Below are positions 12,247 through 17,219 of a stretch of 64,000 nt of DNA, piece after piece. Location of the stretch: contig NZ_WBKB01000002.1 in the NCBI RefSeq assembly GCF_008831155.1, positions 372,001 through 436,000 of the forward strand. The letters run 5' to 3'. Made by a program: the position numbers and the translations under genes. The notes under the pieces were generated by a model. The model ran no database searches, was not told where the DNA came from, and worked only from the letters and a program-made list of their open reading frames with translations. Position 1 is the stretch's first letter; each line of letters opens with the position of its first letter. The stretch is from Gulosibacter chungangensis. GTDB lineage: Bacteria > Actinomycetota > Actinomycetes > Actinomycetales > Microbacteriaceae.

Positions 12247-12930
12247 ATGAGCGTGACAGCACCCCCTCGAGTAGTCCGTATAGATATGACGGCGCTCGAA
12301 CAGAATCTCCAGCGGCTCGCTCCCGAGGTCATTGATGTGCGTGCCGATGCCTATGGCCATGGCTTGAATAGGGTCCTCGCGACCGCCCGCGAAAGCCTTC
12401 CGGGGTTGCGCGGTGCCATTGTGAGTGAGGTGGAGCTCGCCAGCATCGATCGTGAGCTCTTGCACGGACTCGAGGTCAGCCATGCCGCTGATCCCCGCGT
12501 CGCGTCCGCGGCAGTGTATGGCCTGGACCCTAACGCGGACACTGTGCCGGTGATGGCCGTACGAGCACAGGTGGTGCTGCGGAAGCCCTTGAAAGCGGGC
12601 GAGGGCGTCTCCTACGGAGGTTCCTACCGGTGTGAAACCGATACGTCCATGGCACTGGTCGCGATTGGTTATTCTCAGGGCATTGCCCGCCGAGCGTCGA
12701 ATCGCTGCTATGCCGCTGTGGCGGGGTCTCGCTGCCCCGTGGCGGGATCCATCTCAATGGATCTACTCAGCGTCGATGTTGGCGCATTACCGGTCGATCC
12801 CGGTGACTACGTAGAACTTTTCGGCAACCAGGTGCGCCTGACCGAGTGGTCGGCCGCCACTGGGATCGCTCCCCTGGCGCTCAGTAGCCGAATCCAACAG
12901 TCTGTTCCAAGAATCGAGGTGCGTGCATGA
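12247..12930 (+). CDS. Truncated alanine racemase-like subunit (AlrA): C-terminal domain with a collapsed barrel
   Basis: 227 aa, against about 370 in the family. The N-terminus keeps the first barrel strand and the RADAYGHG box, but the PLP-binding Lys is Arg32. About 150 residues of the barrel are missing: the line jumps from ELLHGLEVSHAADP to AAVYGLDP, and the Arg that contacts the PLP pyridine is gone. The C-terminal beta domain is intact, with the catalytic Tyr (Tyr123 in GEGVSYGGSYR) and Met171-Asp172 in GSISMDLLSVD. It cannot hold PLP as a Schiff base alone. The AAGGAACAGG ribosome site fixes the start. Its stop overlaps the next start (ATGA), so synthesis of the two is likely coupled. 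I infer that it donates Tyr to the active site of AlrB. Confidence 0.85.
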   Translation: MSVTAPPRVVRIDMTALEQNLQRLAPEVIDVRADAYGHGLNRVLATARESLPGLRGAIVSEVELASIDRELLHGLEVSHAADPRVASAAVYGLDPNADTVPVMAVRAQVVLRKPLKAGEGVSYGGSYRCETDTSMALVAIGYSQGIARRASNRCYAAVAGSRCPVAGSISMDLLSVDVGALPVDPGDYVELFGNQVRLTEWSAATGIAPLALSSRIQQSVPRIEVRA

Positions 12931-14045
12931 CCGCTGTTGAACAGGCACAGTCTCGCGCGGTGCTGACCACCGATCTCGAAGCGATTGCCAAGAACCTGCG
13001 GAAACTGCGGGCTGATTTCGCACCCGCCCGCACGATGCTCGTGGTCAAGGCGGATGCATACGGTCACGGCCTCGTTGAGGTTACGAAGACCGCGATTGCC
13101 GAGGGCGTCACAGACTTTGCGGTGCTCGATATCGAAGCCGGTGCTGAGGCACGTCGGGCCGGTGCGGAAGGCACCATCTTCGCCTGGCGACTCACGCCCA
13201 CGAGCGATCTTGCGCTCGCAAAGCGCGAGAAAATTGACCTCGGTGTGCAGAGCCTCGATCAGCTTGAATTGATTGCTGCCTCAGCGCCACTGGACGTGCC
13301 CGCGCGCATCCACCTCAAGCTTGATACTGGGCTCCACCGCGGCGGCGCGAACCCTGAAGAATGGGATGCGATCGTGGCCCGCGCCGTTGAGTTGGAGCGA
13401 GCCGGTGCCGTCGAAATTATCGGCGCTTGGACGCACTTCTCGGACAATACGATGGCTGAGGACGAGGCGTCCCTGGCGCTATTTCACCGGATGGTGCGCC
13501 GTGCGCAGCAGCAGGGCGCAAATTTCTCGGTGCTGCATGCCGCGGCGAGCGGCGCGGGGATTGACTTCCCCGAGTCACGGTTAGATTTTGTTCGACTCGG
13601 TCTTGGCGGATATGGAATCTCCCCCTTTGATGATCGCAGTGGCCTTGACCTTGGACTCTTTCCTGCCCTCACCCTCACCGCTCCGGTACGTGCGGTTGAC
13701 GCCGATACCGCGACCGTTGCGATTGGCTATGGCGATGGCTTGCAAAGTGCCAGTGGTGTCGAAATGTGGCTCGCAATTAATGGCCAGCGGCATCCGATCC
13801 TCGCGGTCGGCGTTGACGAGACCACCGTCCGGAGGATTCCCGGTATCGAGATTGCTGCCAGTTCGGTAGCGTATTGCTTTGGAAATGGCGACCACGGTGA
13901 GGCAACCGCCGAGCAGTGGGCCGAAGCGTTTGGGACGGTGCCCGATGAGATCGTCACGGGTGTCACTGCAAGAGTGATGAGAACCTCCACCGCTCGAAAT
14001 TCGGCCACCAGACCACACAGCAACGAAAATATAGAGAGCAGATAG
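12927..14045 (+). CDS. Alanine racemase-like PLP subunit lacking the catalytic tyrosine (AlrB)
   Basis: 372 aa. The barrel is complete, with Lys41 in VVKADAYGHG (PLP Schiff base), Tyr45, HLKLDTGLHRGG, and Arg223 in DFVRLGLGGYG (pyridine contact). The C-terminal domain is degenerate: after LTLTAPVRAVDADT the chain goes straight to VAIGYGDG, so the roughly 20 residues holding the second catalytic base (Tyr265 of Geobacillus Alr, motif VSYG) are absent. The Met-Asp region reads VGVDETTVRR. These losses are the reverse of those in AlrA, whose gene overlaps by ATGA. A heterodimer with one working site is inferred. The last 25 residues are polar and unlike Alr. Confidence 0.88.
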   Translation: MTAVEQAQSRAVLTTDLEAIAKNLRKLRADFAPARTMLVVKADAYGHGLVEVTKTAIAEGVTDFAVLDIEAGAEARRAGAEGTIFAWRLTPTSDLALAKREKIDLGVQSLDQLELIAASAPLDVPARIHLKLDTGLHRGGANPEEWDAIVARAVELERAGAVEIIGAWTHFSDNTMAEDEASLALFHRMVRRAQQQGANFSVLHAAASGAGIDFPESRLDFVRLGLGGYGISPFDDRSGLDLGLFPALTLTAPVRAVDADTATVAIGYGDGLQSASGVEMWLAINGQRHPILAVGVDETTVRRIPGIEIAASSVAYCFGNGDHGEATAEQWAEAFGTVPDEIVTGVTARVMRTSTARNSATRPHSNENIESR

Positions 14046-15059
14046 TTGAGCAATCTTTCTACCCGCGTGGGGTATCTCATTGAGCGTGCCCGCGTATTGA
14101 ATTTCGGGAGCGTCGTGGAACGCGCCAAGCAGACCGCGCAGCAGCATTCGAAGCGCTGGCCCATCGTGCTTGGCGACATGCTGATCGAATCCGCGGTCCA
14201 CGGCACCAACTTCCAGGATTATGTCGACTGGGACTTCGCGCGGCTCAAGAACAAGGAACGACGCACCTACCTCACGAACGGCATCAGCGCCTACATCGTC
14301 GAGAAATACAACGATCCCGAGTACTTCAAATACCTCGAAGACAAGGTGGAGTTCAACAAGCGCTTCGGCGAGTATCTCCACCGGGAATGGTTCCTGGTAA
14401 CCGAGCACACGGCCGAAGAACTGCGGGAATTCTTAACCCGACAGGAAAAGGTCATCGCGAAGGTTCCGGTGAGCAACTCCGGCTACGGCGTTGACCTGTA
14501 CTTTGCGAAGGATGTTGAGAACTGGGAAGAGTTCCGCGAGTTTCTGATCAAGCGCGATCAGATCCTGCTCGAGGAATACATCATCCAGCACGATGCCCTC
14601 GCTGCGGTTGCACCGGGAGTGGTGAACACCACTCGCGTGACCAGCTTCTTCAAGGATGGGGAGTTCAACGTCGTCTCCTTCGCGCAGAAGTTCGGCGTTG
14701 GTAACGGTGCGAGTGACCAACAGTCCTTTGGCGGCTTCTTCGTGTTGCTGGATGAAAAGGGACACGCGGTGAGCCCCGGTTACGGTTCGCACCAGCACAT
14801 TTACGCCAACCACCCGGAGACCGGAGCGTCAATTCCGGACTTCCAGCTCCCGCAGGTGGAAGACGTGCTGGCCCTCTGTGAGGAAGTCGCAAGGCAGATT
14901 CCCGAGATTCCCTATATTGCATGGGATGTTGTCGTGACACCTAAGGGCCCGGTGATCGTTGAGGGTAACCGCACCCCCGGCGCCTACGAAAACAAGCCCA
15001 CGGCCACCGGCGTGTGGACGGGCTCACTCCCCCGCGTGCGCGAGTTCATCGACATCTAA
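14046..15059 (+). CDS. ATP-grasp ligase (sugar-transfer-associated ATP-grasp type)
   Basis: 337 aa. It resembles the ATPgrasp_ST / TupA-like families: an ATP lysine region VIAKVPVSNSGYGVDLYF (about 134-151), the acidic hinge LLEEYIIQHD (about 171), NTTRVTSFF, and the metal site AWDVVV...IVEGNRTPGAY near the C-terminus (E-x-N). ATP-grasp enzymes activate a carboxylate as acyl phosphate and join it to an amine. The gene starts with TTG directly after the AlrB stop, so it is in one operon with alrA-alrB. This links it to whatever the racemase pair makes, probably by joining a D-amino acid to another molecule. The true substrates are unknown. Confidence 0.78.
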   Translation: MSNLSTRVGYLIERARVLNFGSVVERAKQTAQQHSKRWPIVLGDMLIESAVHGTNFQDYVDWDFARLKNKERRTYLTNGISAYIVEKYNDPEYFKYLEDKVEFNKRFGEYLHREWFLVTEHTAEELREFLTRQEKVIAKVPVSNSGYGVDLYFAKDVENWEEFREFLIKRDQILLEEYIIQHDALAAVAPGVVNTTRVTSFFKDGEFNVVSFAQKFGVGNGASDQQSFGGFFVLLDEKGHAVSPGYGSHQHIYANHPETGASIPDFQLPQVEDVLALCEEVARQIPEIPYIAWDVVVTPKGPVIVEGNRTPGAYENKPTATGVWTGSLPRVREFIDI

Positions 15060-15141: not shown

Positions 15142-16404
15142 TTAGGCGGCCGCTACTGCGTTATCAACAGCCTGGTCGAGGAGATCCAGCCCCCTATTGA
15201 GGGTTTCATCGTCACCGATGAGTGCGGGCATCACCTTGACGACCTCATCGTGGGCACCGCTGACCTCGATGACGAGGCCGAGCTTGAACGCCTCGCGGGA
15301 GATCGCCGAACCGAGGTCGTTGTTCTGCTCAGACACCAGACCTCGCAGCAGGCCTAAGCCGCGCACGGAGAATTTTCCTTCGTGGCGAGCAGCGATCGCG
15401 TTGAGTCGGTCAACCACGATCTCCGAGCGGTGCGCAATGAGCTTCTCGGTGGTGTCATCGGACCAGAACTCTTCGAGTGAACGAGCCGCACCGACGAAGG
15501 CAATCGAGTTGCCGCGGAAGGTGCCGGTGTGCATCCCGGGCTTCCAGACGTCGAACTCGGGACGAATCAGTACCAGCGACATCGGGAACCCATAGCCGGA
15601 AATCGACTTTGAGAGCGTCACAATGTCGGGCACGATCCCGGCGTGTTCGAAGCTAAAGAATTTACCGGAGCGACCCACACCGATCTGGATATCGTCAACG
15701 ATAAGCACGATTCCCTTTTCGGTGCACAGCTCACGAAGCTCCTGCAGCCATTGGTTGCTGGCAACATTGATGCCGCCTTCACCCTGGACGGTCTCCACGA
15801 TAACTGCCGCTGGGAGATCAAGCCCGCTCGAGGGGTCTTCGATGTGCTTGCGGAGTAGGGCGACGGTGTTAATTTCCTCACCGTAGTAGCCGTCATAGGG
15901 GTGGAAGACGACATCGCTCAGCGGAACGCCCGCAGCATCCCGATACCAGCTGTTCGCGGTTGCGGCGAGAGCCCCCAGTGAAAGTCCGTGATATCCGTGT
16001 GTGAAAGCGACGATGGTACTCCGGCCGGTTGCCAGGCGCGCCACCTTCATCGCGGATTCAACGGCGTTCGCGCCGGTGGGGCCGGAAAACTGCAGTTTGT
16101 ACTCGAGCCCACGGGGAGCCAGGATGTTGTCCCGGAACAGTTCGAGGAAACGCTTCTTGATCGAGGTTGCCATGTCCAGCGCGTGCTGGATTTTGTTCCC
16201 GCTGAGGTACTCAACGATCGACTTCTGCAGGACCGGGTGATTGTGACCGTAGTTTAGGGTGCCCGCGCCGCAGAAGAAGTCAATGTATTCGCGGCCTGCT
16301 TCATCGGTGAGGATGGAGCCCTGTGCGGTGTCGAACACCGTCGGGAATGCGCGAACATAGCTGCGTACTTCAGATTCCATAGTGGCGAAGACAGAGAGAT
16401 CCAC
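15142..16404 (-). CDS. Class III aminotransferase, EctB-like (diaminobutyrate--2-oxoglutarate transaminase)
   Basis: 420 aa, the usual length of EctB. PLP-binding features are FSGPTGANAVESAMK (about 105-119), the VDDIQIGVGRSG block with the PLP-contacting Asp, and the Schiff-base Lys in VTLSKSISGYG. EctB makes L-2,4-diaminobutyrate from aspartate semialdehyde with glutamate as donor. No ectA or ectC is near, so ectoine synthesis is not suggested. The neighbours are racemase and ligase genes instead. Start: AAAGGAG lies five bases before the GTG at 16404, and longer starts from 16452 would lack a site. It lies downstream of the CofE-like gene on the same strand, with a hairpin between. Confidence 0.85.
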   Translation of the reverse strand: MDLSVFATMESEVRSYVRAFPTVFDTAQGSILTDEAGREYIDFFCGAGTLNYGHNHPVLQKSIVEYLSGNKIQHALDMATSIKKRFLELFRDNILAPRGLEYKLQFSGPTGANAVESAMKVARLATGRSTIVAFTHGYHGLSLGALAATANSWYRDAAGVPLSDVVFHPYDGYYGEEINTVALLRKHIEDPSSGLDLPAAVIVETVQGEGGINVASNQWLQELRELCTEKGIVLIVDDIQIGVGRSGKFFSFEHAGIVPDIVTLSKSISGYGFPMSLVLIRPEFDVWKPGMHTGTFRGNSIAFVGAARSLEEFWSDDTTEKLIAHRSEIVVDRLNAIAARHEGKFSVRGLGLLRGLVSEQNNDLGSAISREAFKLGLVIEVSGAHDEVVKVMPALIGDDETLNRGLDLLDQAVDNAVAAA

Positions 16405-16471
16405 AACCACTCCTTTCATCATTAGCTTTGGCGGAGAGCTGTTCCCCGCCAAGCGAATTCAAGTCTCTACC

Positions 16472-16514: not shown

Positions 16515-17219
16515 TTAGTGGGTGGATTCGGGCTGTCGGAGTACACCCATCGGAGTCGACTGGTGGCCCTGACCGAGCGGATTGTCCTTGAGGACGCGTA
16601 CCCAGTGGTCATTGAGATCCGCATCGAGGGTGGAGCCGAGGATGTTGCCGCCAATGTCGTTAATGTCGACAATGAGCACCTCAACCTTGTTCCCCAGCAG
16701 AATTTTCAGGTCCTGTGCAACAAGCTGCGGCGTCGCGGGACCGAGCACCACCGACTTGTTGTACGGCGGAATCGTTCCCGAGGTGGGGCCGTCAATCGCG
16801 CGTGCCTTTTCGCCGGCGATGCGATAGAAGTCACCCTTGCGGCCCATGGGCTTCGTGACCGCTGCCGCGGCAGCGGCGAAGAGGATGCGTGGAGTGCCGC
16901 ACTCCTGCAGCGCCATTTCCATGGTCTCTGGCATGCCGAGACCAATCCCGTGCGGAGTCTTGGTGACGTACTTCGCGAGGAAGTTCGCAAGCGGTCGCGG
17001 CTCAATCTCCTCAAGCAACATCGAACGGCCCTGCGTGATCGCGACGATCTTTTCCGTCACGAACAGCACATCACCTTCCTGTACGACCGGTTCGGCGTAC
17101 TTCCGAATAACCTGGCGAAGGTCGTCATCGGGCATCACGACATGGGTCTTGATGGGGATGCGCTGATAGGTCTTTCCGTCAACGGTCGATTCAAGGGTTT
17201 TGCCGTCGTTCGGCTGCAT
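16515..17219 (-). CDS. CofE-like amide ligase (coenzyme F420-0:L-glutamate ligase family)
   Basis: 234 aa. The fold signature of pfam F420_ligase is seen: an N-terminal RIPIKTHVVMPDDDL, EGDVLFVTEKIVAITQGRSM (about 47-66), a long Ala-rich segment RILFAAAAAAVTKPMGRKG, and the C-terminal VEVLIVDINDIGGNILG. True CofE adds gamma-linked glutamates to F420-0 with GTP. No other F420 gene (fbiA, fbiB, fbiC) lies in the window, and the neighbours are amino acid racemase, aminotransferase and ATP-grasp genes, so another amide bond to a glutamyl or diamino acid is inferred. Start: GAAGGA about ten bases before the ATG. The last 25 residues are polar and not part of the domain. Confidence 0.75.
   Translation of the reverse strand: MQPNDGKTLESTVDGKTYQRIPIKTHVVMPDDDLRQVIRKYAEPVVQEGDVLFVTEKIVAITQGRSMLLEEIEPRPLANFLAKYVTKTPHGIGLGMPETMEMALQECGTPRILFAAAAAAVTKPMGRKGDFYRIAGEKARAIDGPTSGTIPPYNKSVVLGPATPQLVAQDLKILLGNKVEVLIVDINDIGGNILGSTLDADLNDHWVRVLKDNPLGQGHQSTPMGVLRQPESTH

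Follow-up and report, generated by a model that had tools for sequence, protein, structure and literature searches.

The alrA-alrB gene pair

The window analyzed here, a stretch of 64,000 nucleotides from the genome of Gulosibacter chungangensis (contig NZ_WBKB01000002.1, positions 372,001 to 436,000), encodes two overlapping genes, alrA and alrB, both of which derive from alanine racemase (Alr) (Table 1). AlrA matches the C-terminal domain of Alr over nearly the entire profile (Ala_racemase_C, PF00842; 107.9 bits, profile positions 1-126 of 127) and scores only 15.3 bits against the barrel profile (PF01168; cut-off 24.1), as anticipated by the preliminary description of this locus, according to which most of the barrel is missing. 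AlrB matches the barrel profile in full (181.6 bits, positions 2-220 of 220); its match to the C-domain profile is over the cut-off but covers only positions 31-126. Against the TIGR00492 model of Alr (cut-off 168 bits), AlrB scores 173.6 bits and AlrA 113.7 bits.

Table 1. Features of the alrA-alrB locus (positions are those of the window)
Feature	Position	Strand	Description
alrA	12247..12930	+	chain of 227 aa derived from Alr, with a shrunken barrel and the whole C-domain
Arg32 codon of alrA	12340..12342	+	where the PLP lysine is expected; position computed
Tyr123 codon of alrA	12613..12615	+	proposed second catalytic base; position computed
ATGA	12927..12930	+	stop codon of alrA over start codon of alrB
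alrB	12927..14045	+	372-aa Alr-derived chain; whole PLP barrel
Lys41 codon of alrB	13047..13049	+	proposed PLP lysine; position computed
ATP-grasp protein gene	14046..15059	+	PF14397; TTG start directly after the alrB stop
Diaminobutyrate-2-oxoglutarate transaminase gene	15142..16452	-	EctB type; 593.9 bits, cut-off 552.2
CofE-like protein gene	16515..17219	-	F420_ligase family; 46.7 bits, cut-off 25

Alignment with ordinary Alr places Arg32 of AlrA at the position of the PLP lysine (Lys39 in the Alr reference), Tyr123 at that of the catalytic Tyr265 and Met171-Asp172 at that of Met312-Asp313; furthermore, Tyr142 and Arg148 correspond to Tyr284' and Arg290'. Lys41, Tyr45 and Arg223 of AlrB occupy the positions of Lys39, Tyr43 and Arg219, with Lys131, Arg138, His170 and Ser208 as further barrel residues, and there is a gap at Tyr265, the segment that contains this residue being missing. 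Every residue stated in the preliminary description is confirmed. The Met-Asp region of AlrB, which had been described as changed, has Val296 at the position of Met312; Asp297 does align with Asp313. The gate position, Tyr354, is occupied by Asp340 of AlrB. Each of the two chains thus lacks one member of the catalytic pair, the PLP lysine in AlrA and the tyrosine in AlrB, whereas all 84 ordinary copies in the alignment described below have both.

Partition of active-site residues among Microbacteriaceae

The homologue search with AlrA covered 149 genomes including that of the window; among these, 89 relatives from the same family were included in a PF00842 search, after which 120 loci were examined for Alr-like open reading frames. 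The resulting alignment comprises 165 rows from 80 of the 90 same-family genomes and includes 28 AlrA-like (A) chains, 27 AlrB-like (B) chains, 13 A/B fusions and 84 ordinary Alr. Ten genomes with a single, ordinary-looking PF00842 match were left out (G054, G056, G057, G059, G061, G069, G070, G073, G081 and G084), as were the fusion of genome G009 (L070), which is broken into two frames and contains an ambiguous codon, the two half frames of L110, from a genome that is 86% complete, and full-length racemases of other types (L106, L139 and L146). The L109 chain was counted as A-type.

In Alr, a two-base mechanism combines a lysine from one protomer with a tyrosine from the other, and further active-site residues likewise have own-chain or partner-chain roles, as described in PMC3485190, PMC4517790 and PMC3146814. 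Lys39 is present in all 27 split B chains and all 13 N-terminal halves of the fusions but in none of the 28 split A chains and none of the 13 fused C-terminal halves. The distribution of Tyr265 is the exact opposite (28/28 split A, 13/13 fused C halves, 0/27 split B and 0/13 fused N halves), and Met312 is partitioned in the same manner (41 of 41 A-type and 0 of 40 B-type chains). The ordinary full-length Alr have all three residues in 84 of 84 cases.

The partition extends to a wider set of 10 PLP-side (own-chain) positions and 6 opposite-chain positions. Split B chains keep 242 of 270 PLP-side cells of the alignment compared to 33 of 162 opposite-chain cells, and the fused N halves 118 of 130 compared to 7 of 78; split A chains keep 45 of 280 PLP-side and 156 of 168 opposite-chain cells, and the fused C halves 13 of 130 and 77 of 78, respectively. 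For ordinary Alr, the corresponding counts are 755/840 and 490/504. Opposite sets of active-site residues are therefore retained in two linked genes, a reciprocal pattern characteristic of chains that have one site in common. There are two deviations from this pattern. Asp313 is kept in 22 of the 27 B chains, so that the C-domain of these proteins is not entirely freed, and Tyr43 is kept in 20 of the 28 A chains and 11 of the 13 fused C halves despite the loss of the PLP lysine, a retention that a shared site does not explain.

For AlrA, the dN/dS ratio is 0.065-0.108 among five Pseudoclavibacter loci (10 pairs), 0.15-0.39 among eight Leifsonia loci (28 pairs) and 0.17 for one Frigoribacterium pair, values that indicate purifying selection on this gene.

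Linkage of the two genes and the parE locus

Among the 27 split A loci other than that of the window, 26 have an adjacent B gene, and in the remaining one (L109) the expected place of B lies beyond the contig end. A second set of loci, taken from records with organism names, consists of 46 loci after the exclusion of L200-L202 (from Variovorax and a proteobacterium, with an ordinary lysine motif) from the initial 49; it partly overlaps the first set, so that the counts are not additive. An adjacent B frame lacking the tyrosine motif was detected in 43 of these 46 loci, and the lysine motif pattern was matched in 40 of the 43; as for the others, the motif of the B gene in L181 is a variant one, L165 stops at a contig edge and L185 is ambiguous. 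Thus, no clear orphan A gene was found among the 27 split A loci and the 46-locus set, and the possibility that AlrA homologues often occur without AlrB, which would have spoken against an obligate heterodimer, does not hold. As the arrangement is repeated across 28 A chains and 27 B chains, those of the window included, and a B frame follows A in 43 of 46 loci, it is not due to chance or sequencing error.

The A frame overlaps the B frame by four bases in 22 of the 27 A loci (12 with ATG, 9 with GTG and 1 with CTG as the start codon) and in 34 of the 46 loci of the second set (26 ATG, 6 GTG and 2 CTG). It is plausible that this overlap ensures the supply of AlrA and AlrB in a 1:1 ratio.

In all 27 parE-locus stretches, including the window, a parE-like gene flanks the pair on one side; a sigma-70 gene is located on the other side in 24, and in the other three none was found within the stretch or contig. 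The split pair is present in records labelled Gulosibacter, Pseudoclavibacter, Leifsonia, Homoserinibacter, Salinibacterium and Protaetiibacter, as well as Humibacter, Diaminobutyricibacter, Pseudolysinimonas, Frigoribacterium (metagenome bins), Microbacterium and others. Among the matches listed for 394 genomes of the class, short frames that span the whole A model come only from the same family. A candidate for a fused form outside the family, L207, with a compact-looking match in a long frame, turned out to be an ordinary full-length Alr.

The ATP-grasp protein encoded next to alrB in the window falls into a cluster to which five other loci contribute one gene each, and it is possibly a ligase of the same pathway as the pair. 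The EctB-type transaminase, which would make L-2,4-diaminobutyrate (L-Dab), belongs to a cluster with one other member (in L051). Among the 27 parE-locus stretches, murT-like genes are present in 16, gatD-like genes in 11 and CofE-like genes in 8, one member of each cluster having been confirmed by Pfam. At this locus the CofE-like gene excludes murT and gatD (none of the 8 CofE-like stretches contains either) and is accompanied by an ATP-grasp gene in 6 of the 8.

Natural fusions and the alanine racemase complement

Among the 13 natural fusions in the residue table, 12 have the B-A order and one has the A-B order. In the genome of the window (99.71% complete, 21 contigs), PF00842 matches are confined to the pair and a single 670-aa open frame, so that the search detected no ordinary alr elsewhere. 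This other Alr is a B-A fusion, 659 aa long from the first start codon, and is located next to tsaE (L061 6327-8339, G000:C20). Each of the ten further genus members that were examined has such a B-A fusion (the copy in G009, L070, being broken), as do G082 and G058. In G058, one 789-aa frame (L073 5686-8055) contains an Alr lacking the tyrosine, a tyrosine-bearing Alr C-domain and TsaE; the second half of the fusion is barely more than the C-domain, and the frame continues into TsaE. A TsaE-type P-loop frame lies beside or within all 14 such loci that were checked (L059 and L061-L073) and beside all four ordinary alr loci that were checked. The genome of G003, which belongs to the genus of the window, encodes an A-B fusion at the parE locus (L035 6579-8366), a B-A fusion (L064 5801-7675) and an ordinary Alr (L078 4407-5555), and G086 carries two split pairs, one at the parE locus and the other, in the B-A order, at the tsaE locus.

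Altogether, 13 of the 90 genomes contain PF00842 matches without an ordinary copy (G000, G001, G002, G004-G010, G025, G058 and G086). In Gulosibacter relatives, the fusion at the alr-tsaE locus appears to be, in most cases, the only recognizable Alr. The 0.93-Mb genome G025 contains a split pair (L074 5726-7649) and no other PF00842 match; the A chain of this pair reads VSYC rather than VSYG, and the B chain has Asn at the position of Tyr43 and Asp at position 354. A D-Ala-D-Ala ligase (Ddl) scores over the cut-off in all 15 genomes analyzed in this respect (these 13, G003 and G082). In 13 of the 15 (G025 and G058 are the exceptions), the strong match is accompanied by another Ddl-like one that scores lower, at about 210-250 bits. 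Formation of D-Ala by a D-amino-acid transaminase was considered and set aside: no such enzyme exceeds the cut-off in any of the 15 genomes, although this cut-off is strict, as just one of the 14 control genomes exceeds it, and weaker matches are present in 12 of the 15. Given the absence of an ordinary Alr from the 13 genomes, the presence of Ddl in 15 of 15 and the lack of a transaminase over the cut-off, D-Ala in the organisms without an ordinary Alr is most likely produced by enzymes of the shared-site design.

Predicted structures

The AlphaFold2 model of AlrA has a pLDDT of 91.9 and a pTM of 0.86 and aligns with solved Alr chains over 213-224 of its 227 residues (best Z 22.7, rmsd 2.2, among the matches listed); as modelled, AlrA corresponds to an Alr whose barrel has shrunk. 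The natural fusion is modelled as one confident unit (pLDDT 82.2, pTM 0.85), the first half of which (residues 5-379) fits Alr with Z 30.4 and rmsd 2.7 over 357 residues. When Foldseek aligns the fusion with one Alr chain over about 605-618 columns, the rmsd is near 17-19 A, and over about 370-410 columns it falls to 3.3-4.8 A. Because the long matches have a high rmsd and the shorter ones a low rmsd, the second C-domain is read as displaced: it would not lie in the place of the chain's own C-domain, which fits, without proving, a location in trans.

Evolutionary origin of the split pairs and the fusions

Nine genomes encode two full-length Alr in tandem (L075, L076, L081, L083, L094, L096, L107, L130 and L137). 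In the tree of the barrel domain, a branch with 98% SH-aLRT support separates 26 of the 27 B chains, the nine second copies of the tandem pairs and the parE-locus fusion from the 12 fused N halves of the tsaE locus, the tsaE-locus B chain of G086 and the remaining ordinary Alr. Within the first of these two groups, the B chains and the full-length copies are interleaved, which implies that the history is not that of a simple clade: the label B requires six changes, four of which are forced by starred branches. A single origin of all barrels lacking the tyrosine was rejected (the constrained tree has a log-likelihood 122 lower; AU p 0.0145, from a quick tree). A single origin of all A-type chains is compatible with the C-domain tree, which is poorly resolved (AU p 0.714), and in which the tsaE-locus A chain of G086 is found next to the full-length second copies of the tandem pairs. 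On the strength of these phylogenies, at least two losses of the tyrosine from the PLP chain can safely be assumed for Microbacteriaceae. The duplication followed by reciprocal loss that was initially proposed for this locus is supported both by the barrel tree and by the survival of full-length tandem pairs.

Possible substrates

In Alr, Tyr354 narrows the entry to the active site and is linked to specificity, according to PMC3485190 and PMC4517790. This position is occupied by Asp or Glu in 26 of the 27 B chains and in all nine second copies of the tandem pairs, and by Tyr in all nine first copies. It is Tyr in the 12 tsaE-locus fusions and Glu in the parE-locus fusion; the only B chain with Tyr354 is that encoded at the tsaE locus of G086. 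A group of nine full-length Alr (L087, L097, L103, L113, L124, L131, L135, L138 and L147) has His at this position, and six of the nine lack Arg309. The peptidoglycan of Gulosibacter is described in PMC6113628 as containing DAB or D-ornithine.

Given the acidic gate residue (Asp or Glu) of 26 of 27 B chains, the ATP-grasp, EctB and CofE-like neighbors in the window and this wall composition, we tentatively suggest, at slightly less than even confidence, that the split pair racemizes a diamino acid (L-Orn or L-Dab) and so provides the D-diamino acid of the B-type peptidoglycan cross-bridge, with D-Ala being made by the fusion. A somewhat doubtful but serious alternative, which is compatible with a heterodimer, is that the pair is a second alanine racemase without a special substrate. 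G025, in which there is no other PF00842 match, speaks for this possibility: as its only candidate is a split pair with Asp354, either the pair serves D-Ala there too, in which case it may act on alanine in addition to another substrate, or D-Ala comes from elsewhere. Against plain alanine racemization stand the Asp or Glu residues at position 354 in 26 of 27 B chains and 9 of 9 second copies, compared to none of the nine first copies, the lowered alanine activity of a thermophile Alr with charged residues at this position (reported in PMC4517790), and the EctB, ATP-grasp and CofE-like genes that adjoin the pair in the window.

A probable shared active site

In our view, AlrA and AlrB are very probably complementary chains, a single site in AlrB being completed by AlrA, that arose by duplication and reciprocal loss. 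The preliminary description had proposed an obligate unit of this kind, with one active site, and the comparison of sequences, through the residue partition, the co-occurrence of the genes and the fusions, supports it well. The complete barrel of AlrB would bind PLP on Lys41, and AlrA, representing the half of the second protomer that is left, would dock with it, so that Tyr123 of AlrA enters the AlrB site as the second base while Tyr142, Arg148, Met171 and Asp172 provide carboxylate and entryway contacts; the would-be second site, in AlrA, would be gone. We infer that AlrA and AlrB form a complex in which each dimer has a single, functional site.

An AlrB that works alone by means of a different second base, be it as a racemase or as some other kind of PLP enzyme, and is regulated or stabilized by a non-catalytic AlrA, is improbable. 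In favor of this reading, nine of the ten PLP-side residues (all but Tyr354) are each kept in 26-27 of the 27 B rows, and the regulation of an active enzyme by an inactive paralogue has precedents elsewhere. However, all 27 B chains have lost Tyr265 and Met312, and the A chains keep the residues that reach into the partner (156 of 168 cells, with Tyr265 and Met312 in 28 of 28); a mere scaffold would not need to retain these partner-site residues. That AlrA is a decaying pseudogene fragment, or the product of a frameshift, beside a diverging paralogue devoid of racemase function can practically be dismissed: the loss of the PLP lysine and most of the barrel would fit decay, but recurrence, selection and co-occurrence disfavor it, with intact A frames that adjoin B in 26 of 27 and 43 of 46 loci, dN/dS well below 1, and the same design in fusions that are the sole PF00842 protein found in several genomes.

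Under the shared-site reading, the gene for an Alr homodimer would have been duplicated and complementary loss would have produced the pair; in Gulosibacter relatives, the two parts would have become a single chain by fusion at the alr-tsaE locus. The full-length tandem pairs, the split pairs in both orders and the fusions in both orders could then be surviving stages of one path. The broader scenario, in which Microbacteriaceae repeatedly made obligate one-site heteromers, with tandem Alr1/Alr2 giving rise to a split D-Orn/D-Dab racemase at the parE locus and to a tsaE-locus B-A fusion that replaced the ordinary Alr, and with the stages still extant, seems to us evenly poised between right and wrong.

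Comparison with known systems

Alanine racemase, which is targeted by antibiotics, is a textbook example of a homodimer. The AlrA-AlrB pair shares its fold, PLP site and two-base residues with the single-gene homodimeric enzymes (TIGR00492; PF01168 and PF00842) but differs from them in that the catalytic residues reside in different genes or fusion halves, with presumably one site per unit rather than two. The fold and the chemistry are those of Alr; what is new is that two complementary genes share the task. Searches of the open-access full-text literature brought up no paper describing an alanine racemase of heteromeric type.

The lysine-preferred and broad-specificity racemases, Lyr and Bar, resemble AlrB in the replacement of the gate residue Tyr354, which is linked to larger substrates in PMC3485190. 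Lyr and Bar have Thr or Ala at the gate and both catalytic residues in each chain, in contrast to AlrB, with Asp or Glu at the gate and no catalytic tyrosine. The diaminobutyrate racemase PddB would form the same product, D-Dab, if the suggested substrate is correct, but is described in PMC8225329 as a PLP-independent, DapF-like enzyme, unlike AlrA-AlrB. Within the portions of the literature covered, no PLP racemase assigned to the D-diamino acid of the group-B actinobacterial wall was found, and the pair could fill this gap as the source of that amino acid.

With the two catalytic bases in different genes, in many genera and with possible living intermediates, the step from a homomer to an obligate heteromer becomes directly testable. 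Deoxyhypusine synthase and the AdoMetDC-prozyme pair of trypanosomatids also consist of paralogues, one or both of which are impaired alone, that work as heteromers. These are other enzymes in other organisms, and the loss in AlrA-AlrB is cleanly reciprocal and recurs together with fusions. An engineered 'fragmentary alanine racemase' reportedly demonstrates that Alr made in two pieces can work; that enzyme is a man-made cut of one gene, whereas AlrA and AlrB are natural complementary paralogues.
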